Below are positions 29,127 through 42,052 of a DNA stretch of 64,000 nt, in pieces. Source of the DNA: Cylindrospermum stagnale PCC 7417 (GTDB taxonomy: Bacteria; Cyanobacteriota; Cyanobacteriia; Cyanobacteriales; Nostocaceae); assembly GCF_000317535.1 (NCBI RefSeq), contig NC_019757.1, positions 4,677,501-4,741,500 on the forward strand, written 5' to 3'. The notes beneath the pieces were generated by a model. It made no database searches. It was not told the origin of the DNA and was given only the letters and a program-made list of their open reading frames with translations. How positions within the stretch are numbered: the first letter of the stretch is position 1; each line of letters begins with the position of its first letter. A program made the translations under genes and the position numbers.

Positions 29127-29657
29127 ACTTCTTATTTCCTATTTTTCCACTATTACAGCACTTCCCAGTGTCATGAGGTACAAGAACCCCACCCCCAACC
29201 CCCTCCCCGCAAGCGATGAGGGGGCTATGATGTACCTTATAACAAAGGGATCCGCTGTAATTGCGGGAAGGGCAATGGTGCGGGTTGTCGGCTCAAAAAG
29301 CGATAGGTTACGCCCAATTGTTTCTAGAAATAATCTAATTTGCATAATCAAATTAACTAAAACTCTTGTGGGGGAACTACTGTGTTGGGCGGGTTTCCCG
29401 ACTTCCCTACGGGGAACCTCTCCCCAACCCCTCTCCGAAACGGAGAGGGGCAAAAATATTCTTAGTTTTGAAGGATAAAATAAAGGTTTTAAAGCCTCTT
29501 TCCCCGTGGGGGGGAGGTTTGGAAAGGGGTTATTTACATTAGTGGTTGATGCTACTTGTAGGTTTGCTCTATGTTTTAAGGTAGTGGGTGCTTAATTATT
29601 TAGCTAGTGTTTTCATGCGAATGACAAATTTATGAATTTTCTCGGCATTCTCTGCGT
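29127..29657. other. Intergenic region with several G/C-rich hairpin repeats
   Basis: Contains an element bounded by GAGGTACA and TGTACCT (29174-29240) with C-run and G-run arms inside, a second hairpin CCCCTCTCC-GAAAC-GGAGAGGGG (29420-29443), and a remnant of the same class at 29500-29530. These are common Nostoc interspersed repeats. Next to the CRISPR leader, at 29612-29631, lies a sequence recurring inverted at 33320-33340. Confidence 0.65.
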
Positions 29658-29832
29658 CAGGGTCAGCAAAAGCTGGAAACCGTTATTATCTCGTTGACCC
29701 TGCCGATATCTCTCTCTGACAGGGTTTTGGGGTTTTTCTGCCTCTAGCTGACGCAGATAAATTCTGTGTGCACAGACCCCGTCGCAAACGGCAGCTGGAC
29801 ATTAGGCATAGTCAGGGCTTAAAGTATGAGGG
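29658..29832 (+). promoter_or_regulatory. CRISPR leader of array 1
   Basis: 175 bp directly before the first repeat. It matches 41127-41301, the leader of array 2, at roughly nine in ten positions with no length change. It opens with CAGGGTCA, paired with TGACCCTG at 29697-29704 as an inverted repeat. Placement at the end with complete repeats fixes array polarity: transcription left to right. Promoter elements are expected here. Confidence 0.85.
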
Positions 29833-31061
29833 GTCGCTTCTATTCTGAGAAGTGGAATTAATGGAAACCAGATTGAAAGGTTGCTTCCAACTCTTCTTTC
29901 TGTAGCCACGCGTCGCTTCTATTCTTAGAAGTGGAATTAATGGAAACCTCGCATCTACCGGTTCGTCCGGGGATATTTGCAGGTCGCTTCTATTCTTAGA
30001 AGTGGAATTAATGGAAACTTGCAACAATATGTACCTTACTGGGTACGTTAACAAGTCGCTTCTATTCTTAGAAGTGGAATTAATGGAAACGAGATACGAC
30101 GAAAGCAGAAGGTCGCCCTTCGTATTCGTCGCTTCTATTCTTAGAAGTGGAATTAATGGAAACCGACTCTAGCTCAAGAGAGCCTTCATCGTTGCAAACT
30201 CATTGTGCAGCGTCACTTCTATTCTCAGAAGTGGAATTAATGGAAACTTTGGCTCTCTAACGGACGTGTCTATTCGGAATGTCACTTCTATTCTGAGAAG
30301 TGGAATTAATGGAAACTTACCCGATTATCTTCTGCCTGCAAAACTCGTTGAATAGTCACTTCTATTCTGAGAAGTGGAATTAATGGAAACCATACAGACG
30401 GGAATTGGTTCCCGACGTGGTGATCAGTCACTTCTATTCTGAGAAGTGGAATTAATGGAAACTTGCCATTAGGCTTGTCGTAATTGGGTGATTTATGCAC
30501 CTCTTTTGTCACTTCTATTCTGAGAAGTGGAATTAATGGAAAAATCGTTGGAATTGCGATTTTTGCCGTATCACCTAGAACTGTCACTTCTATTCTGAGA
30601 AGTGGAATTAATGGAAACGTATATGTGTCATCGGCTTCAAGATGAACAGTGAGAGTCACTTCTATTCTGAGAAGTGGAATTAATGGAAACAACGGATATG
30701 CTTCTTTCAAAGCAGGATTAAGCTGGTCACTTCTATTCTGAGAAGTGGAATTAATGGAAACTTGACTTCTCCGCCAATCAATCTTCCATAAAGGGCATAG
30801 GCGTCACTTCTATTCTTAGAAGTGGAATTAATGGAAACATTTCTATGACAGGGATATCGATGCCACGTAACACAGTCACTTCTATTCTTAGAAGTGGAAT
30901 TAATGGAAACGAGGATGCCATTGACAGCATGCCCAGCCCATCCCAGCAGGAGGAGTCACTTCTATTCTTAGAAGTGGAATTAATGGAAACACCCAGAAAT
31001 TATCCCAAAGCATAATCACAGGGTTTATACCGTCACTTCTATTCTGAGAAGTGGAATTAAT
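29833..31061 (+). CRISPR. CRISPR array 1: 17 repeats, 16 spacers, type III-B associated
   Basis: 36-base repeat beginning GTCRCTTCTATTCTKAGAAG and ending TGGAATTAATGGAAAC; CACTTCT/AGAAGTG forms a 7-bp hairpin and the last eight bases ATGGAAAC suit a crRNA 5' tag. Repeats start at 29833, 29912, 29983, 30055, 30128, 30212, 30281, 30355, 30427, 30508, 30583, 30655, 30726, 30803, 30875, 30955 and 31032. Spacers are about 34-48 bases. Repeats 1-5 read GTCGC, the rest GTCAC; repeat 10 ends in A, and repeat 17 loses its last bases (ATTAAT then unrelated), marking the leader-distal end. Confidence 0.98.
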
Positions 31062-31068
31062 CAAAATT

Positions 31069-31101
31069 AAAAGGTCGGGATATTAACATCCGACCTTTTT
31101 T
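31069..31101. terminator. Terminator between array 1 and the kinase-WYL gene
   Basis: Hairpin AAGGTCGG/CCGACCTT with an 11-base loop, flanked by A-run on the left and TTTTTT on the right, so it could terminate the array transcript rightward and the kinase-WYL gene leftward. Confidence 0.8.
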
Positions 31102-31135: not shown

Positions 31136-33220
31136 TTACTCGCTATAAACTTTAACAATATCCTCACCCATTCCCCTAACTTTAACTAATAACTCTTGTG
31201 GCTGTAACACCTTCAAACCTCCTCCAAACCCAACAATCCAGCGAATAAACTCTACATCACCCAAACACCATTTAGGCAATACTACCCGAAAGCGATTGGG
31301 GAAGTTTTTATCTCCGGTTTTCTTGAGACAGAAAATCGACTTGGGGGAGTTTAATTTCCCTCCTATTACAGGTGGAGACATCTTCATTTGCTGTGCAGGA
31401 AATCTCTTAGTTCCCTCAGCAATAAATCTAAACATAGCATCATTAAACCATAGTTCTACTGTGACACAGACTTGCGATCGCTTTCCTTTGTCCTGACTGA
31501 GGTACAAAAGCTGGTCACTAGCGCTGTATCCCAAGAAAATTCCCGCACCGGCAGCAGAGAGTTTATGCAGTTTCTGTAATGACTTTTCTTGTTCTAGTCT
31601 GGAACGTACTCTCCCTTGAGGCTGACCGATAAACAATCTATCTAAGCGTTCAAATCGGAACAACCCCGCATACTCTCCACCTTCACACTCATAACCCAAA
31701 TACCACGCAGTGTTACAAAACACTATTTGCAAGGGATATGCTAAAAAGAACCCTTCCTCATCAAGGGCAAACTTACCGCCACCAGGAAAGCGATTTAATT
31801 CTAGCAGTTGTCCGTTAGCGATCGCCTCTTCTAATTGCTGTAAATTGCTAGAAAGCGCCTCTGGTGGTAAAAAAGCTGAGTCAATCATACTACGATTGGC
31901 GATCGCGCGTACCGGATACACATCACTTACCCCTAACTTACTCTGTACCATGCGAGTAGCAAAAGTTTCATAAATTTCCAGCGCTACGGGATCATCAAAG
32001 CTTTTCGCTTGAGACTGGAGAACGCCAAACACCTTGATTAATTCATGTTCTGACAAAATCGCTGTCCCCGCAAAGTAGCCATTTCTGAGGGGAAACTCAG
32101 GCAATATTTTATATGGTTTCAGAACCTTTTCAATATCTTTGCGGACAGTGTCCAGTTCATCATCGTCAATAATCCCATGATCTTCGAGTGCAGACACAAG
32201 AGTTTTGAAACTTCCCTTACCTAAATCTTGCAAAAACGGGTGGTGCAGAATCAAGCAAATTGTCCGCATCAACCGCTGGAAACTGCCTAAATCAGAATAG
32301 GCGTGGGTTACAAAAGAAGCTAGGGCGCTGGAGTCATATTCAGGTGGCGAACTCGCCACCCCCAGAAAGTGGGGTAATGAAGAGATAGTATTGACGCCAA
32401 TTAGACTATTTTGTTTTAACCAGAGTAAATCAGATGCAACGGCATTTTCGTCAGCATAGATATTACCGCACAATTTAGCCATAAAGGCATTAACTTCCGC
32501 CGCCGCACTAGCAAACTGAGGAACATTGCTAAAAATGCTTTCTAGCAAACTGGGCTGATTTGCTTGCAGATTACCAATTTCTGGGTAGCGAATTATCAGA
32601 GAAAGCAGATGCATTAAGCGTTCAAAGTCCAGCAGCTTGCTATAAGAGTGCAAAGTAATATAGCGGTTGCGGTTGGCGCGGTTGATGAGGGTACGGGAAA
32701 GCTGTTGAATTTGGGTTGGGATTTGTTGAATGTCAAATTTGGGGGAGGTGACATCGATTTCTTTTACTGCTGCAAATCCTTCTGCTGCTATTGGCGGAAA
32801 GTCTTGCAGAGACTTGTGCATACTCTCAATTACAAAGTCTGGAACCTGGCGGGGGCGTTGTTGGTTCCATACCTTGCAAGTTGCAAGGGGAGTTTGCAAG
32901 TACCACCCCATCCACAGTACAGGATTTGTCAAAGATAAGTTCAACTTTTGCAGCAAATCCATCCGCCACCCACGTCTGGCATTGGTAGCGTCATAGATTA
33001 CAGCATAACCTTGTGCGATCGCCTCAACTATCTCAGAGATAACTTTTTTCTCAATTTGACTCCACTCACCCTGGATAGTTGCGTCGCCGTAGAGTTGTTG
33101 GCGAATAGCGTCAGTAGAGACAACGCGATAATTCTCCAGTTTGGCTAACTCGGCGGCGAAGCTAGATTTGCCACTACCAGGGATACCAATGAGAAAGTGA
33201 CAGATAGGAGGAGTAGACAT
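31136..33220 (-). CDS. P-loop polynucleotide-kinase-like domain fused to WYL-domain regulator, CRISPR-linked
   Basis: 694 residues. Residues 1-150 are a P-loop kinase of the T4 PNK/AAA_33 type: Walker A GIPGSGKSS (12-20), STDAIRQQLYGD, and VIYDATNARRGWRMD. A long helical middle follows. From about residue 480 a WYL domain is seen (FFLAYPLQIVFCNTAWYLGYE) with the C-terminal WCX-like extension (VVLPKWCLGDVEFIRWIVG). WYL domains sense ligands and regulate CRISPR and other defence loci; WYL repressors are known in cyanobacterial CRISPR loci. No obvious N-terminal helix-turn-helix, which most WYL regulators have. The gene is divergent from the cmr operon with 384 bp between and ends against array 1. 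Confidence 0.85.
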   Translation of the reverse strand: MSTPPICHFLIGIPGSGKSSFAAELAKLENYRVVSTDAIRQQLYGDATIQGEWSQIEKKVISEIVEAIAQGYAVIYDATNARRGWRMDLLQKLNLSLTNPVLWMGWYLQTPLATCKVWNQQRPRQVPDFVIESMHKSLQDFPPIAAEGFAAVKEIDVTSPKFDIQQIPTQIQQLSRTLINRANRNRYITLHSYSKLLDFERLMHLLSLIIRYPEIGNLQANQPSLLESIFSNVPQFASAAAEVNAFMAKLCGNIYADENAVASDLLWLKQNSLIGVNTISSLPHFLGVASSPPEYDSSALASFVTHAYSDLGSFQRLMRTICLILHHPFLQDLGKGSFKTLVSALEDHGIIDDDELDTVRKDIEKVLKPYKILPEFPLRNGYFAGTAILSEHELIKVFGVLQSQAKSFDDPVALEIYETFATRMVQSKLGVSDVYPVRAIANRSMIDSAFLPPEALSSNLQQLEEAIANGQLLELNRFPGGGKFALDEEGFFLAYPLQIVFCNTAWYLGYECEGGEYAGLFRFERLDRLFIGQPQGRVRSRLEQEKSLQKLHKLSAAGAGIFLGYSASDQLLYLSQDKGKRSQVCVTVELWFNDAMFRFIAEGTKRFPAQQMKMSPPVIGGKLNSPKSIFCLKKTGDKNFPNRFRVVLPKWCLGDVEFIRWIVGFGGGLKVLQPQELLVKVRGMGEDIVKVYSE

Positions 33221-33604
33221 TTTCTTTACATACTCAGGCTGATTTTTTTGTATCCTCTTTTAAACTCAAAATCTAGTCCTGTCAAGCGAATCACAAATTT
33301 ATCACCACTTCTCTACTGTAAATTTCGTCATTCGCATGAATAGTAGTTTACAACTTTCAGATTACCGCTAAGATAAAAGCACAACATAAATCGGCAAAAG
33401 TTTACACAGTAAAAAATATAGAATTCTTACCATTATATTGCTCACGCTGTAGGCAATAGAAGGATTTTAGACTTTTTAATTTAGCAATTAACAACCAAAC
33501 TCGCTGCTAGGTAATAAAGAATTGTTACAAAGTATTTTTCTTTCTAAAAAGCTAAATAAAAGCTTGTATGTTGAAAACCTAGTGTATAAAGGAGATATAG
33601 CTAA
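33221..33604. promoter_or_regulatory. Divergent control region of kinase-WYL gene and cmr operon
   Basis: AT-rich 384 bp that must hold both promoters. At 33320-33340 lies AAATTTCGTCATTCGCATGA(A), whose reverse complement matches 29612-29631 beside leader 1 with one difference; its core ATTC-GCAT-GAAT is an inverted repeat and a candidate operator. AAGGAGATATAGCTAA precedes the cmr2 ATG, giving a strong ribosome site. No small gene found. Confidence 0.6.
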
Positions 33605-35200
33605 ATGAATCAGTATACTGCTATCACCTTTGCACCAGTTCAAGGATTTATTGAGAAATCCCGCAAACTCCGCGATTTGTATGGTGCATCTTTGATTCTC
33701 TCTTACCTAAGTCAGCAGTTAGTAAAAGAGTTTCATAAACCACCAGAACTAGAAGTAATTTCTCCAGCAAGTCATAATTTGCAGAAAGGGATGCCTAATC
33801 GGATTCTGATTAAAGGAGAAGTTAGTAAAGGTGATGCAGAGATAATCCTCACCTCTGCTTGGAAGAAAATTTTACAAGTATGTCGGACTTGGGTTGAGAA
33901 AAAATTACCTGATTATCAATACCACTGGGAACGGGAGTGGACGCTTTGGGGTTGTCACACCTGGGAAATATTTCAAGGAAGAGGTGACACTATCCAAGCA
34001 GCGATGGATGATTTGGAGACTCGGAAATTATCCCGTGCTTGGACTGCGGTTAACTGGATTGGTGAGAGTTCTAGCTTGACGGGTACAGATGCGATCGCAT
34101 TTCCGGGACTAGGTGCAGAAACTCGTAATCCTAAAAATATGAACTATCGTTCAGAGAATGATAGCATTAAAGGCTTTTATACACAACTTGCCAGAAAATT
34201 AGATAATTGTCCACCTGACAAACAACCAGAAGGTAAATATATTGCACCTAACGAAAAGCTGAGTATTCCTGAATTGGTAAAACGTCTAATTACCTTACCA
34301 GAAATAGCAGATTTAATCAGCCAAGCAATACCTAATAATCAACCATTAGAAAAACTCAAACGATTTCAAGAAATTGAACGCAAACCCAATAAAAATGTAC
34401 CTGGACAATGGACAGGTTGGTTTATGGGAGATGGTGACAAAGTTGGAGATTATTTAAAAAAATTAGCAGATGAAAATGATAGTGATATAAGAATTGAAAC
34501 ATTTAGTCAAGGAATGCGAAATTGGGGAAAACAATTTGAGCAAAATTTTCCTGAAGACCTAGGTAGAGTAGTTTATGCAGGTGGTGATGATTTTTTAGGC
34601 ATAATTTATAGTAAAAATCCTGCTGAACCGATTCAACCATTAACAGCATATCAATGGTTAATGGCAATAAATGATAAATGGCAAGAACATAAACAGAGTA
34701 TTACTGTAAGTGTTGGCTTTGTTTGGGTTGCTGGTAGTGTACCCCAGCGAGACGTTTTACAACATTGTCGAGAAGCGGAAAAAGTAGCTAAATCTTTAGG
34801 ACGCAACCGAGTCACAATTAGAGTAGTTTTTAATAGTGGTCAATATGTGCAATGGACTTGTCCCTGGGATTATTTGCATATTTTAACGCAGTATCGAGAT
34901 AGAGAAAAACAATCTAACTGGAGTCATGTTTATCAAGACTTAGCACATTTAGAATCTCGACGAACATTTAAAATTGAGAATGCCAAAGAAGCTTATATTG
35001 TCCAAAAATCAGCAATTGAATTTTTTGAGGTTTACTTTCCAGGAGAAGGACAGAAATTACTAGAAGATAAAAATTATAAATTAGCGCAATATCTTGTTGG
35101 ATTTAACGAAAATGATGACGAAATAGATAGAGCAAAAGCCACAATTGATTGGATGACAGATTTAATTAAAGTAGGCTGGCATTTATGTTCAAATACCTAA
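33605..35200 (+). CDS. cmr2: Type III-B Cas10 subunit Cmr2, HD-less, GGDD intact
   Basis: 531 residues, the large subunit of the Cmr complex. It starts at the region that normally follows the HD nuclease (ITFAPVQGFIEKSRKLRDLYGAS), so the DNA-cutting HD domain is absent, and family members with HD are much longer. First palm: TGWFMGDGDKVGDYL. Second palm: VVYAGGDDFLGIIY with GGDD at 326-329, the cyclic oligoadenylate synthase site. A zinc-finger pattern is not obvious. It should signal through cyclic oligoadenylate to the CARF-HEPN protein encoded at the end of the operon. Overlaps cmr3 by 16 bases. Confidence 0.95.
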   Translation: MNQYTAITFAPVQGFIEKSRKLRDLYGASLILSYLSQQLVKEFHKPPELEVISPASHNLQKGMPNRILIKGEVSKGDAEIILTSAWKKILQVCRTWVEKKLPDYQYHWEREWTLWGCHTWEIFQGRGDTIQAAMDDLETRKLSRAWTAVNWIGESSSLTGTDAIAFPGLGAETRNPKNMNYRSENDSIKGFYTQLARKLDNCPPDKQPEGKYIAPNEKLSIPELVKRLITLPEIADLISQAIPNNQPLEKLKRFQEIERKPNKNVPGQWTGWFMGDGDKVGDYLKKLADENDSDIRIETFSQGMRNWGKQFEQNFPEDLGRVVYAGGDDFLGIIYSKNPAEPIQPLTAYQWLMAINDKWQEHKQSITVSVGFVWVAGSVPQRDVLQHCREAEKVAKSLGRNRVTIRVVFNSGQYVQWTCPWDYLHILTQYRDREKQSNWSHVYQDLAHLESRRTFKIENAKEAYIVQKSAIEFFEVYFPGEGQKLLEDKNYKLAQYLVGFNENDDEIDRAKATIDWMTDLIKVGWHLCSNT

Positions 35201-36168
35201 TTAGTATTAATCCGTTAGGATTTATGTATGGAAGTGCTGGGGCATTTCTCTCACCAGAAAACCTAGTTGGACGTTCCGGTGCTAAATTTCCTCCTGAAGC
35301 TTCCACACTATCAGGTTTAATATTTAGCATCAGCAAAACGACCGGACAATTTACTCAAACAGAATTGAGAGATAATCTCTATGTTACAGGCCCATTTTGG
35401 GCAAAATCCAATACCAAACAAAACTTTTATATTCCCATTCCCTGGCATAAAATCATCTCTAAAAAAGGCATAGGAGAATGGCAAATAGAAAATGGTGAAT
35501 GGCAATTAGAAAAGGATATAGAAAAACCAGAACCTGATTATCGTTGGCAAACTATAGACTCTTGGAAAACATCATCAAAAGGACTCAAAGCAAGTAAATC
35601 AATTGCTGACAGTCCTTGGAAGTTCGTTTCTTTTCTCCATCCTAAAATTCAACAATCAGAACGTTGTGTAGAAAAATCTGACGGACTATTTCTAGAAAAC
35701 TCTGTGCAGATTCCCGACGATGTTTGTTTAATTTATTTATCAACTTATCCCATTGATAACGGTTGGTATCGGTTCGGTGGTGAAAATCACATTGTCGAAA
35801 TCTCCTGTGACAAACTGAATCAAAAAACAGTAGATATTTTAAATCAACCCATCGCTAAAAGTTTCGCTTTAATCACACCAGGAATTTGGGGTTCTAACCG
35901 TATATCTTACCGTCAACCTCAACATGATAATTTTCCTGAAACTATGCAAATGTTAACTGATAAACCAGTTCCCTATCGTTATCGTTCCCAAGGGACATTA
36001 GGAAGAGGACGTTATGCAGTTCCTGCTGGGAGTGTTTACGTTCTCAAAGAACCCATAGATAAACCTTGGTGGGAATGGGATGAAGCATGGTTTCCCAAAG
36101 AAGGTTATAGCCTTAAAAAAGTTGGGTGTGGTTTGTGTTTACCAGTAGAAATTAAAGGAGTCGCATAA
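35185..36168 (+). CDS. cmr3: Type III-B RAMP protein Cmr3
   Basis: 327 residues, Cas5-group RAMP that binds the 5' tag of the crRNA in the Cmr complex. N-terminus YLISINPLGFMYGSAGAFLS followed by LSGLIFSISK (the Cmr3 opening) and the glycine-rich segments ITPGIWGSNRISYRQ and RYRSQGTLGRGRYAVPAGSVY. ATG lies within the end of cmr2. The region 100-130 (EWQIENGEWQLEKD) is a repetitive charged insertion. One base separates its stop from cmr4. Confidence 0.92.
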   Translation: MFKYLISINPLGFMYGSAGAFLSPENLVGRSGAKFPPEASTLSGLIFSISKTTGQFTQTELRDNLYVTGPFWAKSNTKQNFYIPIPWHKIISKKGIGEWQIENGEWQLEKDIEKPEPDYRWQTIDSWKTSSKGLKASKSIADSPWKFVSFLHPKIQQSERCVEKSDGLFLENSVQIPDDVCLIYLSTYPIDNGWYRFGGENHIVEISCDKLNQKTVDILNQPIAKSFALITPGIWGSNRISYRQPQHDNFPETMQMLTDKPVPYRYRSQGTLGRGRYAVPAGSVYVLKEPIDKPWWEWDEAWFPKEGYSLKKVGCGLCLPVEIKGVA

Positions 36169-36169
36169 A

Positions 36170-37021
36170 ATGTACAAAAAAGCTTATGGCATAATTGAAA
36201 CTTTAGCACCACTTCATGTAGGTGCAACAGCCGGACAAGAAAGCGGTAATTTAAACCTAATTTTCCGCGACCAATTTACCCAAACTGGCATCATTCCCGG
36301 TAGTTCTATTCGTGGTCGTCTGCGGTCAGAAATGCGTCTGCTAGAAAATGGAGAAACAGAAACAAACTATTGGTATGGTAACGAAGCAGGTGCAGAAGAA
36401 TCAAATAACAACGAATCTATCGTTAAATTTGAGTATGCTTCTATTATTTGGATTCCTGTTTTTTGTCCAGGACAACCAATAGTTTGGGTAACCTGTCCTC
36501 GTTTACTGCAACGTTATCAAAGAATTGCTGGTGATACAGTTCAAGTACAAGTAGATGGTCAAACTAAATTTCTCAAAGAGGTAGAAATTCCTGATGCTTA
36601 TACTGGTTCAAAAAACTTGAGAACAAAATCATTACCAGGTGGGACAAAAACCTTATTCTTTAACTTAGGTTTTGTAACTATCAAGAAAACAGTAGACTTA
36701 TCCCCTTGGTTTCCCGCTAAAAAAGAGCAACCTGCAATCATAGTAGATGATAGTGATATCGGCATGATTCACGATATGGCTTTATATCGTCAAAGTCGTG
36801 TGCGATTAAAAGCAGACCAAAAAGTAGTAGATGGTGGTGGTTTCTTTAATACCGAAGCTTTACCAGAAGGAACAATTTTAGTATTTCCGATTGCTATCAG
36901 AAATGATAAATCTGGCAAAAATTGGCAACCTTTCAATGGTAGTCAAAGCACAGATATTTATCTTGGTGGTCTAGAATCTATCGGTTTGGGTCATTGTGAA
37001 TTAACTTTAAATGGATTGTAA
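36170..37021 (+). CDS. cmr4: Type III-B backbone RAMP protein Cmr4 (Cas7)
   Basis: 283 residues, the repeated backbone subunit that lines the crRNA. Signatures: ETLAPLHVGATAGQESG, IIPGSSIRGRLRSEM and the C-terminal YLGGLESIGLGHCEL. In characterised Cas7 proteins of type III, an Asp four to six residues before the R/K-(D/E) pair in the first loop cuts target RNA; here the loop reads SGNLNLIFRDQ, with Leu/Asn at that place and the next Asp after the Arg. Slicing activity may therefore be reduced or moved. Cmr5 start overlaps its last codons. Confidence 0.93.
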   Translation: MYKKAYGIIETLAPLHVGATAGQESGNLNLIFRDQFTQTGIIPGSSIRGRLRSEMRLLENGETETNYWYGNEAGAEESNNNESIVKFEYASIIWIPVFCPGQPIVWVTCPRLLQRYQRIAGDTVQVQVDGQTKFLKEVEIPDAYTGSKNLRTKSLPGGTKTLFFNLGFVTIKKTVDLSPWFPAKKEQPAIIVDDSDIGMIHDMALYRQSRVRLKADQKVVDGGGFFNTEALPEGTILVFPIAIRNDKSGKNWQPFNGSQSTDIYLGGLESIGLGHCELTLNGL

Positions 37022-37451
37022 ATATATGACTTGGAAATCTTATAACTTAGACCAAGAAGCACAAAAATTAGTCCTCAAACATCGTGACAAAAAAGGGGTA
37101 ATTGGTCAATCACACAAAATGCGAACTACTGTAGCTTATGGTTTAGAACGCTTTTGGGGTGAACAATTACGACTGTTAGGTAAAAACGACTCTAAAGAAC
37201 GCGCTAAAGGTGAATATTGGCGTGATACTTGGAAAGCTTTTGTCGCAATTATGAATAATGCCGGAATTAAACTTCCTCAAGAAGATGTAAATGGGAGTAA
37301 TACCCCAGAAATCCAAAAATATGCTGCTAAATTATGGGAATTTCCCATTGAAGACCAAAGAATCTGTTTAGCAGTTCTCACACAGTTTTGTGACAGTTTA
37401 GTTTGGTGGACTCAGCGTTATAAGAAAACAGGAGATAGTGATGCCGAATAG
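37011..37451 (+). CDS. cmr5: Type III-B small subunit Cmr5 (Cas11)
   Basis: 146 residues (141 if ATG 37026 is used, which avoids overlap with cmr4). All-helical, with the Cmr5 pattern LERFWGEQLRLLG and a central QKYAAKLWEFPIEDQRICLA. The small subunit lines the inner groove of the Cmr complex and contacts target RNA. Position between cmr4 and cmr6 agrees. It overlaps the next start by 11 bases. Confidence 0.85.
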   Translation: MDCKYMTWKSYNLDQEAQKLVLKHRDKKGVIGQSHKMRTTVAYGLERFWGEQLRLLGKNDSKERAKGEYWRDTWKAFVAIMNNAGIKLPQEDVNGSNTPEIQKYAAKLWEFPIEDQRICLAVLTQFCDSLVWWTQRYKKTGDSDAE

Positions 37452-39057
37452 CAATGAAGTTCCCTTAATGTTTCAAGCACCAGTCAAAGGACGGGGACAA
37501 ATTCAATATATTCAAGAACCCGAAAAATCAGAAAGATGGGTTGATGAATGGGTAGAAGCTGCTGCAAAAAAAACTCCTGAATTTACTAACAAGGTTAAAA
37601 CCAAAGAATATAAAATTACTTGGCGTTTTGTTTCTAACAGTGGACAAGATGACGATATCATTCGACCAGTAATAGCTGCTAATGGGTTTCCCTATTATCC
37701 TGGTGCAAGTATGAAAGGTGCTTTTTTACGCAGTTGTAACCCTCAACAAGCACAAAGATACTGCGGTGGTCAAATTTCTAGTAATGAAACCCAACCAGGA
37801 ATACTCCGCTTTCACGGTGCATATCCTCATGATGATAGTTGGAGTGAACAACCATTAATTGATGTGGTTCATCCTCAGCAAGATTGGCAAGTTAAAAATA
37901 GTGAATCTCATGCAGCTTTTTTGCAAATATCTCTCTACCAACCTACTTTAGTTTTTGGTATTTCTAGCAATATTCAACTAGATGAAAGTGAATGGCAAAC
38001 TATCTGGAGTATTTGGGATAAAGCTATAGAACGAGGAATTGGTTCTAGAGTTAGTGCTGGTTATGGTCAACCTATTAACCACCCAGAAACCAAGCTGATT
38101 ACTGTCAATTTAAAAGGACAAGGATTAGCATCACAATTAATAGATAAAAGTGGTGAATTTCGCCCAAATATGTTTAAAGCTGCTTTACGTGGTCATACAT
38201 TGCGGCTATTTAGTGCTGTGACTGATGAGAATACAGCCGAGGAATTAACCAAAGAACTTTGGGGAGGGTTTGCAGGTGCTAATGGTGCAGTAGTTGGTCA
38301 ATTAGGAATTGCATTTAATCCTGTAGAGTTAGAACTAGATGAATTTAGATATAACAGGGTATCTATGCCTACTTATGAATTAGATAAAGGCGTTTTAAAT
38401 ATTCTTTGTATGAGTAATTGTACAGATGAATATAAAAAGGAATTGAAAATTTTAGCAATGCAGCTTTTACGATTTTCCATGCTTATCGGTGGTTTTGGTA
38501 AATCAGGGCGCAGAATTGATCATCGGATATTCTTCCCGCAATATTTAGACAATGGTAATAAACCGATGATAGGCTGTCACTGGGAATTTACTAAGCAATC
38601 AAATAACTACTATTTTCCTATTAATAATATTAAGCATATCACGAATATTCTTGATGGTGTCCAGAAATCTGCTAAGAATTGGCTAATATTCAAAGGGAAA
38701 ACACCAAGTAATCAAGTAAGTTCATGGCGCGAATCTTTTCATCCTCAAAAGGTGCAAGTTTGGGGGCGTATTGCACAGGATGAAGATGATAGTTTAGCTG
38801 TGAGATGGTTTCACGGTAATTACAAAGGAAGTCAATCAATTAAAGGTTCTAAATTGACGGGTAAAATGAGTAATATTGGCAGAATTTACCATCGGATGTA
38901 CCCACATTATATCAAAACAACAGAAGGGGAGATAAGACGCAAAGGTAGAGAATATGTAGAGTTATTAACTATTTTCCCAGATACAAGAGATGAGAGAACA
39001 CAAGAATTTATCACCTTTTTACCAACATCTGGATTTACTAAATTTTGGGGAGTATAA
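37441..39057 (+). CDS. Double-RAMP Cmr6/Cmr1-like protein
   Basis: 538 residues from ATG 37441 (GTG 37438 would add one). Two RAMP units: residues about 60-220 with PYYPGASMKGAFLRSC and the glycine-rich GIGSRVSAGYGQ (Cmr6-like), and about 240-400 with FRPNMFKAALRGHTLRLFSAV, WGGFAGANGAVVGQLG and LIGGFGKSGRRIDH (Cmr1-like). The final 130 residues are of unclear fold. The operon has no separate cmr1, so this protein may serve both roles at the 3' end of the crRNA. Length is about twice a usual Cmr6. Confidence 0.85.
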   Translation: MPNSNEVPLMFQAPVKGRGQIQYIQEPEKSERWVDEWVEAAAKKTPEFTNKVKTKEYKITWRFVSNSGQDDDIIRPVIAANGFPYYPGASMKGAFLRSCNPQQAQRYCGGQISSNETQPGILRFHGAYPHDDSWSEQPLIDVVHPQQDWQVKNSESHAAFLQISLYQPTLVFGISSNIQLDESEWQTIWSIWDKAIERGIGSRVSAGYGQPINHPETKLITVNLKGQGLASQLIDKSGEFRPNMFKAALRGHTLRLFSAVTDENTAEELTKELWGGFAGANGAVVGQLGIAFNPVELELDEFRYNRVSMPTYELDKGVLNILCMSNCTDEYKKELKILAMQLLRFSMLIGGFGKSGRRIDHRIFFPQYLDNGNKPMIGCHWEFTKQSNNYYFPINNIKHITNILDGVQKSAKNWLIFKGKTPSNQVSSWRESFHPQKVQVWGRIAQDEDDSLAVRWFHGNYKGSQSIKGSKLTGKMSNIGRIYHRMYPHYIKTTEGEIRRKGREYVELLTIFPDTRDERTQEFITFLPTSGFTKFWGV

Positions 39058-39060
39058 ACT

Positions 39061-40614
39061 ATGAGTATTTGGATTTTGACTACTGGTAATAGTGATGTTA
39101 TCCTCAAACATGATAGAACTTGGGGAAGGTTACATGATGAAGCCAGTCATAATCTAGAATGTTCAGGTTTTGGCTCTGCTTCCAGAATAAATCCTGATGA
39201 TAAAGAAGCTGGATATACCGTACCAGCTAGAATATTAGGTTTAGTTTATGCAAATCAGTCAGAAGAATACTACAAAGATGATTTAAAATTTCCCCTGCTT
39301 GATACATATTCTCAATATTTAACAGATGAAAATATCAAGATTGAAAGAATAATTGTTCTGCTGACAGACCAATCTCAGATATTTAGCAGTGACGAACAAA
39401 GACTTAACGAATTTTCTCCCTATTGGAAAGATACTTGTACCCTTCAACCTCTATTAGAATGGTATTTTAAAAATGCAAAATTTGCCTGTCAACCAGAATT
39501 TCAATATTTAGTCCCTCACCACATCGATAAAGGTGTTGATAACTGGGATGCTACTTTATCACTGGTGGAAGCAAAATTAACAGAGTTAGATATTGATGTC
39601 AATCAGGAAGTTTATGTTAGTCATCAAGCAGGAACACCTGCAATATCTTCTGCTGTCCAGTTTGTAACTATCGGGAAGTTTAAAAAGGTTCAGTTTTTAG
39701 TAAGTAATGAATATTTCAATGAAGATTATGAACTAAAAGCTAAATCCGATACAGTCGAAAGTTCTCGTTATCAGCGAGGTATGCAAATTCAAAAAGCCAA
39801 GCAGTTAATCATAGATGGGTTTCCTGGTGCTGCACTTAAAATGTTGGAAAAAATTAATGAAATAGATAAAGCTGCCATAAGTGAATTAAAAGATATTGTT
39901 GATTTCTTTAATTTATATACTCCGTCAATAGATGACAGTGAAGATTTGGCAGTTCCACAAGCTACCCAAAGGATTGTTGATACTCTTGATCTAATTGGGT
40001 TTTTCTTTAATCAGAAGAATTATTTACCAGGTATTGCTCTATTAGCTGCTGCTCAGGAAACTTTTTTAAAGGTAGCTATTTTGTCACAGGTAGCAACAAT
40101 TAATGAAACTATCAATATAAATGGTAATTATCGAAAAGTCTCTGAGTTGATAAAATGGATTCCTTTTGGATTATTTTTAGATGCCTCTGTTAATAACAGC
40201 AGTATTAGTGATAAGATGACGATTTTAAAAAAGCTAAATTTTCCTGTAAATAGCTTTAAATTTAATACGGATAAAGATTTTGAGATTACAAACAGAAATT
40301 TTGGTTTGATTGCCTGGTTAAAAAGTATAGATAATAATTTTGGTGGTTGGGATTTATTAATATGGTGTTGCAGCAAAAGAGATGCAGATGATGATCTGCG
40401 TAACCAATTAATGCACAATTTGCGTGGGGTAAAAGATAGTGAAGTAATTAACTATTTATTGGCATATAAAAATCATCAAGTATCTGATGTTATGACTGCC
40501 TATAACCATCATGTAAAGCAACATTTTTTGAAAGCTATAGACCGTTTTCAACTTCCTTACAAAAGAGACAAGTTAGCTAAAAGGCTGCAAAAAATAGCAG
40601 ACTCTATTAGATGA
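39061..40614 (+). CDS. CARF-HEPN ribonuclease (Csx1/Csm6-type accessory)
   Basis: 517 residues, 3 bp after the previous gene. The N-terminal 230 residues look like a CARF sensor: IWILTTGNSDVILK opening and VSHQAGTPAISSAVQF (187-202), the usual ligand-loop position. The C-terminal part is helical with a HEPN motif RNQLMH (Arg447-His452, R-x4-H), the RNase active site of Csx1/Csm6. Expected to bind cyclic oligoadenylate from Cmr2 and cut RNA nonspecifically during infection. Its own N-terminal segment is long for a minimal CARF and contains an insertion (residues 25-110). Confidence 0.88.
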   Translation: MSIWILTTGNSDVILKHDRTWGRLHDEASHNLECSGFGSASRINPDDKEAGYTVPARILGLVYANQSEEYYKDDLKFPLLDTYSQYLTDENIKIERIIVLLTDQSQIFSSDEQRLNEFSPYWKDTCTLQPLLEWYFKNAKFACQPEFQYLVPHHIDKGVDNWDATLSLVEAKLTELDIDVNQEVYVSHQAGTPAISSAVQFVTIGKFKKVQFLVSNEYFNEDYELKAKSDTVESSRYQRGMQIQKAKQLIIDGFPGAALKMLEKINEIDKAAISELKDIVDFFNLYTPSIDDSEDLAVPQATQRIVDTLDLIGFFFNQKNYLPGIALLAAAQETFLKVAILSQVATINETININGNYRKVSELIKWIPFGLFLDASVNNSSISDKMTILKKLNFPVNSFKFNTDKDFEITNRNFGLIAWLKSIDNNFGGWDLLIWCCSKRDADDDLRNQLMHNLRGVKDSEVINYLLAYKNHQVSDVMTAYNHHVKQHFLKAIDRFQLPYKRDKLAKRLQKIADSIR

Positions 40615-40917
40615 AATACAATCGAGGGCGGGGAAACCCCGCCCCTACAGGGTTTGCGATTTAAAACTGTACCTCACTGATATGAAAACCGCTATATCTG
40701 CTTTTAGGGGATTTGTGGGGGATTTTTAGATGTTCATCGACACACGTCGGCAAATCGCTGAAACCCTATATTTTCCGTTGAGGTGTGTCGATTGCTTACT
40801 GGGAAAGGATTTCAGCCATGTGTTTGACTCCATTTTGGGCAGTGTATATAATCTTTTTTAGAGGTGTGTCGATTTGGTGGCTGAAACCCTTACTGGGTAA
40901 GGGCTGCTAGACGAACT
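40615..40917 (+). promoter_or_regulatory. Spacer after cmr operon and leader of the mini-array
   Basis: Starts with a GGGCGGGG-AAA-CCCCGCCC hairpin (40626-40644). Then GGTGTGTCGATT occurs at about 40782 and 40866, with an inverted partner ATCGACACAC at 40737-40746; TTACTGGG and CAGCCA/GGCTG blocks repeat too. This structured 180-bp stretch directly precedes a different repeat family and is probably its leader. Confidence 0.6.
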
Positions 40918-41100
40918 CCCCACCGATTGGGTTAAATCGGAATTATTGGAAACCCTTGTTTTGTGCCAAGTTCGTCTTTGTCATCTATTGCCCCACCGAT
41001 TGGGTTAAATCGGAATTATTGGAAACAAGCGAGGTTTACCACCAGCGCTTTTTCTCTACTTCTTCCCCACCGATTGGGTTAAATCGGAATTATTGGAAAC
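40918..41100 (+). CRISPR. Mini CRISPR array of a second repeat family, 3 repeats, 2 spacers
   Basis: Three identical 36-base repeats at 40918-40953, 40991-41026 and 41065-41100, each starting CCCCACCGATTGGGTTAAAT and ending CGGAATTATTGGAAAC. CCGATT/AATCGG can pair. Spacers are 37 and 38 bases. Only the last bases (GGAAAC) are shared with the main arrays, so a different processing enzyme is probably used. It lies 26 bp before the leader of array 2. Confidence 0.95.
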
Positions 41101-41126
41101 TTTTTGCACATTTGACCCCATTGCGG

Positions 41127-41301
41127 CAGGGTCAGCAAAAGCTGGAAACCGTGATTATCTCGTTGACCCCGCCGATGTCTCTCTCTGACAGGGTTTCAGG
41201 GTTTTTCTACCTCTAACTGACTCAGATAAATTCTGTGTCCATAGACCCCGCCGCAAACGGCATCTGGACATTAGGCACAGTCAGGGCTTAATGTAGGAGG
41301 G
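41127..41301 (+). promoter_or_regulatory. CRISPR leader of array 2
   Basis: 175 bp corresponding base for base in length with the leader of array 1. The opening CAGGGTCA is kept; its partner reads TGACCCCG, so one pair of the inverted repeat is changed. It fixes rightward polarity for array 2. Confidence 0.85.
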
Positions 41302-42052
41302 GTCACTTCTATTCTTAGAAGTGGAATTAATGGAAACACTTCGCTTGGAAGCAGGTCGATTGCGTGCAAGACATAGTCACTTCTATTCTGAGAAGTGGAA
41401 TTAATGGAAACCAGCTACGAACTTTGTAACCCTTGGATAGTAATTCTGCTGTCACTTCTATTCTGAGAAGTGGAATTAATGGAAACTTTCTAGCTGTTAA
41501 TACTAAAGCTGTTTGGTCTTCAATGTCACTTCTATTCTGAGAAGTGGAATTAATGGAAACGCCCAAGGTGCAGCAGGGGTAGGGGGGTTTACATAGATAG
41601 TCACTTCTATTCTGAGAAGTGGAATTAATGGAAACAAGCTTGCAACGTCAGAAACGCTCAACGCCAGCAAGTCACTTCTGTTCTGAGAAGTGGAATTAAT
41701 GGAAACCCTGCACATGCCGCGCGCGCTGGCCGCCTTCGAGGTCACTTCTATTCTGAGAAGTGGAATTAATGGAAACTTCTATCTGATTGGCTTCCTTGAG
41801 CGCTTCTATCGCGGTCACTTCTATTCTGAGAAGTGGAATTAATGGAAACGCCAATGGTATTTCTGCCATTCATTCATGTCAGACGTCACTTCTATTCTGA
41901 GAAGTGGAATTAATGGAAACTCGTGGAGGACAGAGCGCCCTATCTCATCTTCATGTCACTTCTATTCTGAGAAGTGGAATTAATGGAAACTCAATCTATT
42001 CAAAACTAAATGCCGATGACGCTTACCGCGAGTCACTTCTATTCTGAGAAGT
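41302..42052 (+). CRISPR. CRISPR array 2: 11 repeats, 10 spacers, same family as array 1
   Basis: Repeats start at 41302, 41376, 41451, 41525, 41600, 41671, 41741, 41814, 41885, 41955 and 42032. All read GTCAC; the first has CTTAG, the others CTGAG, and repeat 6 has a C-T-T-C-T-G change. Spacers are about 34-39 bases. The final repeat keeps only its first 21 bases (through AGAAGT), which marks the old end of the array. Spacer 6 (41707-41740) is notably G/C-rich, unlike the host DNA. Confidence 0.98.

Follow-up and report, generated by a model that had tools for sequence, protein, structure and literature searches.

We observed that a single 694-aa protein, encoded beside a type III-B CRISPR locus, joins a kinase to a C-terminal WYL/WCX region. 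This kinase-WYL protein is probably an autoregulated WYL transcription factor of that locus, with the build of PafBC and DriD and a fused Pnkp-type kinase that looks catalytically intact. We favour a transcription regulator because the gene is placed head-to-head with the cmr operon, the middle region of the protein is predicted to bind DNA, and the two genes share a promoter motif. The presence of this motif ahead of both the kinase-WYL gene and the cmr operon suggests that a predicted DNA-binding switch controls the immune system. Domain composition, conservation of the kinase residues, gene order and motif distribution were observed directly. The window (the whole 64,000-nucleotide stretch of DNA that was analysed) contains the following genes and array:

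29833..31070, plus strand: CRISPR array 1, 17 repeats, the last one degenerate
31136..33220, minus strand: kinase-WYL protein, 694 aa, an ATG-start ORF with homologues and an AlphaFold model (mean pLDDT 83.8)
33605..35200, plus strand: cmr2/cas10, short form, GGDD present, without the His-Asp dipeptide
35185..36168, plus strand: cmr3
36170..37021, plus strand: cmr4
37011..37451, plus strand: cmr5
37438..39057, plus strand: cmr6
39061..40614, plus strand: csx1, CARF-HEPN, RxxxxH motif present

The kinase-WYL gene has array 1 on one side and the row cmr2-cmr3-cmr4-cmr5-cmr6-csx1 head-to-head on the other. The ORF, array and cas annotation agrees with the initial annotation, which had placed the gene between array 1 and the cmr operon and divergent from cmr2. 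No significant match to csx18, cas1 or cas2 was found within the window. Two arrays in the window carry the same repeat and have a 216-base leader-side stretch in common at 92% identity (window 29653-29868 and 41122-41337), and a short array with a different repeat lies at window 40904-41100. The same genome has a further WYL gene (G000:C2:6913427-6913597), and a RAMP cluster (6904550-6908038) lies ~5 kb away from it.

Profile searches found both halves in the one ORF. Pfam AAA_33 matched residues 9-139 (E 1e-19) and WCX residues 657-687 (E 2.6e-4, below the curated cut-off); the Pfam WYL match was weak (E 0.039, below cut-off), and the PADLOC CRISPR-WYL profile PDLC01652 covered residues 453-687 (E 3.7e-15). 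The AAA_33, WCX and PADLOC matches uphold the earlier proposal that a kinase and a C-terminal WYL/WCX region form one protein. The kinase half is delimited as follows:

32741..33208, minus strand: Pnkp-type P-loop kinase domain, residues 5-160

All the motifs of a Pnkp-type kinase are present in this domain, namely the P-loop, D-x-x-R, DAT[NH] and the lid arginines. K18, D37, R40, Q50 and D77 were identical in 109/109 full-length homologues, and the lid arginines were nearly so (R122 in 108/109, R124 in 107/109). The Walker A and DATN motifs that had been read from the sequence hold in part: G12 and K18 of Walker A and also D77 and T79 are invariant in the 109 homologues, and the fourth DATN letter varies (N in 81, H in 26, F in 2). 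Because these residues are invariant or nearly so, the fused kinase is probably active. It would most likely act on nucleic-acid 5' ends and contribute to the sensing of infection or damage.

The assignment to the T4 PNK type was dropped. The existence of the kinase domain and the strict conservation of its motif residues were confirmed, but a profile of 50 homologues matched Clostridium thermocellum Pnkp (4gp6) at 6e-18 and seryl-tRNA kinase at 1e-13, compared to 8e-4 for T4 PNK. Among NCBIfam models, PSTK (7.8e-14) ranked above bacterial Pnkp (5.7e-10), both far under their cut-offs. A Foldseek search with the whole model placed the C. thermocellum Pnkp kinase among the best matches (E 2.3e-8, TMt 0.75, 4gp6). 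The likeness to C. thermocellum Pnkp extends to this fold and to the motif residues. In C. thermocellum Pnkp the kinase shares a protein with a phosphatase and a ligase domain; the partner of the kinase-WYL kinase is instead a regulator.

That fusion would also suit a kinase fold acting as a mere ATP/GTP or nucleic-acid sensor, which would shift DNA binding with no product needed; this is compatible with the regulator part of our reading. Kinase-less WYL proteins that stand head-to-head with cas10, cmr2 or csx18-cas1-cas2 in 4/5 loci (L086-L090) point the same way. However, D37, R40 and Q50 are invariant in 109/109 homologues, and these and the other motif residues presumably correspond to the catalytic residues of C. 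thermocellum Pnkp and T4 PNK. We consider a pure sensor improbable.

The regulator half was divided with the help of the AlphaFold2 model, the boundaries of the helical modules being our reading of its helices:

32351..32653, minus strand: first predicted helical wHTH-like module, residues ~190-290 (DSSP of the model, our helix reading)
32051..32305, minus strand: second predicted wHTH-like module, residues ~306-390 (model helices 311-326, 337-347 and 356-367, our reading)
31616..31855, minus strand: WYL domain, residues ~456-535
31151..31474, minus strand: WCX extension, residues ~583-690

In the WYL domain, W506 and R525 were found in 109/109 homologues, Y507, D527 and R528 in 108/109, and L508 in 106/109, so that both the W-Y-L and the R-x-D-R residues of WYL regulators are conserved. 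At E up to 0.1, Pfam found WCX in 49/50 homologues and WYL in 29/50. The full-length model had a mean pLDDT of 83.8, and that of residues 186-694 had one of 81.2, with low values at residues ~270-300 and ~380-450; the short strands that follow helix 356-367 are also of low model confidence.

Whole-model Foldseek placed PafBC (2e-8) and DriD with ssDNA and DNA (2.7e-7) among the best matches. With the C-terminal half as query, the matches were PafBC (E 1.6e-8), full-length DriD with ssDNA and target DNA (3.7e-8), the DriD C-domain (1.6e-5), and BrxR and CapW (E 3.9e-3); all matches below E 0.01 were WYL transcription factors. The Foldseek superpositions on DriD and PafBC are loose (TMt ~0.4, rmsd ~15). 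The model predicts that the region ahead of WYL is a DNA-binding wHTH-like part made of two tri-helical modules. The absence of an obvious helix-turn-helix had been remarked on earlier. At the level of Pfam this holds, as no HTH family was among the matches of 50 homologues, but it was not retained as the final reading, since fold prediction (PafBC, full-length DriD) groups the region with wHTH-WYL-WCX transcription factors.

DriD and PafBC, the best fold matches, resemble the kinase-WYL protein in the predicted DNA-binding part, the helical bundle, WYL and WCX. They lack a kinase, whereas the kinase-WYL protein has one at its N-terminus, two tandem wHTH-like modules as we read the model, and a position beside defence operons. 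In excerpts of the respective papers, DriD is activated by ssDNA (PMC12340889) and PafBC is activated by ssDNA, without need of a free ssDNA end, but by neither ssRNA nor any nucleotide messenger mentioned there (PMC11804915). A cyclic oligoadenylate could be the WYL ligand: the Csx1 protein has an RxxxxH motif, and Cas10 keeps GGDD, as do 34/34 short Cmr2 proteins >450 aa from the homologue loci (duplicates included). Against this, DriD in its ssDNA-bound form and CapW are among the closest fold matches, and PafBC responded to ssDNA but to none of the messengers mentioned, cyclic oligoadenylates not being among those in the excerpted text (PMC11804915).

The excerpted literature describes WYL regulators of defence systems (PMC4012209, PMC9122601). 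One of them, Sll7009, is said to regulate a Synechocystis I-D CRISPR system negatively (PMC4012209, PMC10212523, in excerpt), in line with the earlier statement that WYL regulators of cyanobacterial CRISPR are known. BrxR, CapW and Sll7009 share with the kinase-WYL protein a WYL regulator adjoining a defence system; the excerpts of their papers mention no polynucleotide kinase, and the BrxR/CapW fold match is weaker (3.9e-3). Several WYL enzyme fusions are listed in the excerpted part of PMC4012209, polynucleotide kinase not among them. RtcR, which controls an RNA-repair operon in response to damaged tRNAs (PMC7790460, in excerpt), has a CARF sensor and neither kinase nor WYL, and is a parallel in logic only. 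The earlier impression was that the fused kinase is poorly described; in the literature searched, mostly open papers, we recognised no description of a kinase-WYL fusion at CRISPR loci.

Of 386 genomes searched within the phylum of the window, 117 had a match, many to the kinase alone. A cross-species scan (one genome per species, bacteria and archaea, single peptide pattern) confirmed 125 relatives, and the best 80 of these 125 all had cyanobacterial record titles. From 145 loci with a match, 127 were left after removal of those with >=97% identity, and 109 of them cover query residues 20-620 and are called full length. A phage origin was rejected: 10 phage records and at least 22 viral contigs match the kinase part only (query residues 1-200 at most), and 0 of the matches listed are full length.

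Within the stretch analysed around each gene, type III genes were found at 47 of the 109 full-length loci and an array or cas1/cas2 only at 5. The others had HKD-SNF2 or DruE-like helicases (12), an unknown gene, c11 (6), a retron-like reverse transcriptase (RT; 5), a pterin-synthase gene (4) or nothing recognised (30); the helicase and RT identities rest on single tested members. Among the 71 loci flanked by >=5 kb on each side, the counts were type III 39, helicase 5, RT 5, pterin synthase 4, c11 1 and none 17. Around a stand-alone kinase paralogue we found 0 cas genes and 0 arrays at 20 control loci, which were hand-chosen, somewhat shorter (12.5-18.2 kb) and searched by tblastn with representative proteins plus array finding, unlike the test loci, which were classed by protein clusters plus array finding. 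The survey of neighbourhoods for cmr genes and arrays thus supports the tie to CRISPR put forward in the initial annotation (39/71 vs 0/20), but although the linkage to type III loci recurs, members of the family are also found away from CRISPR. Some genomes that have a full-length homologue gave no Cas1 or RAMP match, e.g. G330, G291 and G364.

With arrays and small unnamed ORFs skipped, the upstream opposite-strand neighbour in the 109 loci was a short cmr2 in 18, c11 in 13 and a large cas10 in 6. The gene ahead was unnamed in many loci (29 on the same strand, 12 on the opposite one), and in 6 loci it was a same-strand Csm6-like gene (cluster identity tested on one member). In a quick tree, the window's clade had 20 rows; 19 had type III genes and an array, and the remaining one is a 4-kb contig.

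Alignment of the cmr2/kinase-WYL intergenic region from seven loci showed conserved blocks, with ATTCGCWTGA in sense orientation ahead of both genes; several relatives have an additional copy ahead of csx18-cas1-cas2. The putative operator has the consensus TTCGTCATTCGCATGAAA with the core ATTCGCWTGA. In the window we located the following copies and one promoter-like sequence:

33282..33291, minus strand: operator-like core ATTCGCTTGA ahead of the kinase-WYL gene (core only)
33324..33341, plus strand: operator-like motif TTCGTCATTCGCATGAAT ahead of cmr2
29611..29628, minus strand: third copy of the motif, TTTGTCATTCGCATGAAA, next to the array-1 leader
33347..33374, plus strand: sigma-70-like TTTACA-16-TAAGAT immediately downstream of the motif in the direction of cmr2 (promoter scan)

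Several relatives carry csx18-cas1-cas2 at the position of the third copy. The window holds three motif cores, a number equalled in 1/100 shuffles. In the 7.6-Mb genome, the 18-base form had two matches within two mismatches, both at the cmr/kinase-WYL locus; there were three more at three mismatches, and a reversed control gave five matches. The copy ahead of the kinase-WYL gene itself was missed by the 18-base search at 3 mismatches. The sigma-70-like sequence is weak by itself, because the promoter scan was not significant (1 found vs a shuffle mean of 1.6).

We counted the core in 23 loci whose best segment had >=60% identity, with partial genes in three (L057, L139, L142); because the rows share ancestry, these and the other motif counts are not independent, and Fisher p-values serve as no more than a guide. 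Within 450 nt ahead of cmr2 the core was exact in 17/18 loci and present in 18/18 allowing one mismatch. It was also found ahead of large cas10 (2/2), cas1 (6/11 exact, 8/11 with one mismatch) and kinase-WYL (13/23 exact, 18/23 with one mismatch), compared to 2/229 exact for other genes, counting only genes outside the named clusters. The upstream stretch for kinase-WYL was 250 nt, except for L092 and L095 (700 nt). The L095 copy lies 530 nt upstream, and with 250 nt throughout the counts are 12/23 exact and 17/23 with one mismatch; L092 was scored as a miss, its copy sitting just inside an over-long called ORF. Where an array separates the two genes (nine loci), the copy ahead of cmr2 was exact in 9/9; kinase-WYL had a copy in 8/9, exact in 5 and with one mismatch in 3, and L033 lacked it. 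In L036, L096 and L126 the motif also stands ahead of a large-cas10 operon that lies near a kinase-WYL gene.

An 11-base core, TCGTCRTTCGC, was found ahead of 21/109 kinase-WYL genes (down to 43% identity) and of 12/979 other genes, 10 of which were cmr2 or cas10. By context, it preceded 18/52 kinase-WYL genes with CRISPR nearby vs 3/57 without. This is the main counter-result, because the motif may follow CRISPR loci and not the kinase-WYL protein. It would suit a cyanobacterial cas promoter element read by another factor, the kinase-WYL protein being a defence-island neighbour with another role. Three findings oppose this: cas genes or arrays were absent from the kinase-only control loci; the motif precedes the kinase-WYL gene itself, three times with no CRISPR genes found nearby (L047, L120, L140); and the core is absent ahead of six kinase-less WYL genes drawn from the 386-genome search listing, of which five adjoin cas genes or arrays. 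We hold a different reader of the motif to be highly doubtful. Upstream alignments in other clades gave partial motifs only. A looser TGCGAAW was present at 13/18 picocyanobacterial loci with c11, SNF2 or DruE-like neighbours vs 6/121 other genes there.

For the autoregulated transcription factor, we infer DNA binding by the wHTH-like modules, readout of the motif by the kinase-WYL protein, kinase activity, and a nucleic-acid signal at the WYL-WCX pocket. The protein would bind TTCGTCATTCGCATGAAA upstream of both the kinase-WYL gene and the cmr operon, as well as upstream of csx18-cas1-cas2 in relatives, and this binding would set expression of the type III-B locus and of the kinase-WYL gene; the same data suit repression or activation. 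Besides the uneven spread of the 11-base core, several findings weigh against this reading: the lack of a Pfam HTH match, the loose superpositions and low-pLDDT stretches, the own-gene copy that fits the core only, the many loci with an unnamed or Csm6-like gene ahead of kinase-WYL, and those with no recognised neighbour or a pterin-synthase gene. A nucleic-acid signal may reach the WYL-WCX pocket, by analogy, because PafBC and DriD answer to ssDNA, and the fused kinase may make, mark or clear that signal. The analogy is weakened by the fact that PafBC needs no free ssDNA end (PMC11804915), since an end kinase would then have no obvious role if the ligand were alike.

A more specific version is a kinase-gated immune switch, in which the kinase would phosphorylate 5'-OH ends of infection-made fragments and the WYL-WCX pocket would read the product. 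We regard this as possible, if unlikely. If the switch does exist, one protein would write and read an alarm that turns on CRISPR and, elsewhere in cyanobacteria, SNF2/DruE-like or retron-like systems. The kinase-WYL family bears on the control of type III CRISPR operons and on the signals to which WYL regulators respond. It is spread over cyanobacteria and combines a predicted operator and a candidate regulon of few genes with a regulator whose fused enzyme looks active, which makes the DNA target and the signal chemistry directly testable.

The kinase had earlier been proposed to rephosphorylate RNA ends. Here the protein would be an RNA-repair or RNA-processing enzyme acting on 5'-OH ends from Csx1 or crRNA processing, with WYL only targeting or gating it. 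The kinase residues are intact, as this would require, and kinase-WYL, SAM-methyltransferase and AlkB genes stand together in a row on pAQ5 and pAQ6 of Picosynechococcus PCC 7002 (L172:9998-13672, L173:12004-15671), one behind an RT and the other behind a cmr operon, and in L054, also behind a cmr operon. The two Picosynechococcus homologues are SYNPCC7002_RS14620 (pAQ5) and SYNPCC7002_RS14880 (pAQ6, downstream of cas10-cmr genes). A stand-alone kinase of the Pnkp type and an AlkB gene likewise lie near CRISPR3 on Synechocystis 6803 pSYSA (L171:13674-15345). However, neither ligase nor phosphatase was found among the selected subset of neighbour proteins scanned, and the full-length homologues in genomes without Cas1 or RAMP matches do not fit. 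Repair as the main role, raised by the AlkB and methyltransferase neighbours, was demoted: the motif, the head-to-head gene order and the predicted DNA-binding region favour a regulator, and we judge it quite improbable.

Two further arrangements were seen. In six picocyanobacterial loci (L150, L151, L155, L157, L159, L168), kinase-WYL is divergent from c11 (~306 aa), which is followed by HKD-SNF2 or DruE-like helicase genes, as identified from members in L132 and L066. In L049, L050, L053, L118 and L172, kinase-WYL lies downstream of an RT on the same strand, with an unknown protein of ~190-300 aa between them. The best PADLOC matches of the RT of the L172 copy were retron RTs, and the RT, the ~190-300-aa protein and kinase-WYL are possibly an undescribed retron-like operon.
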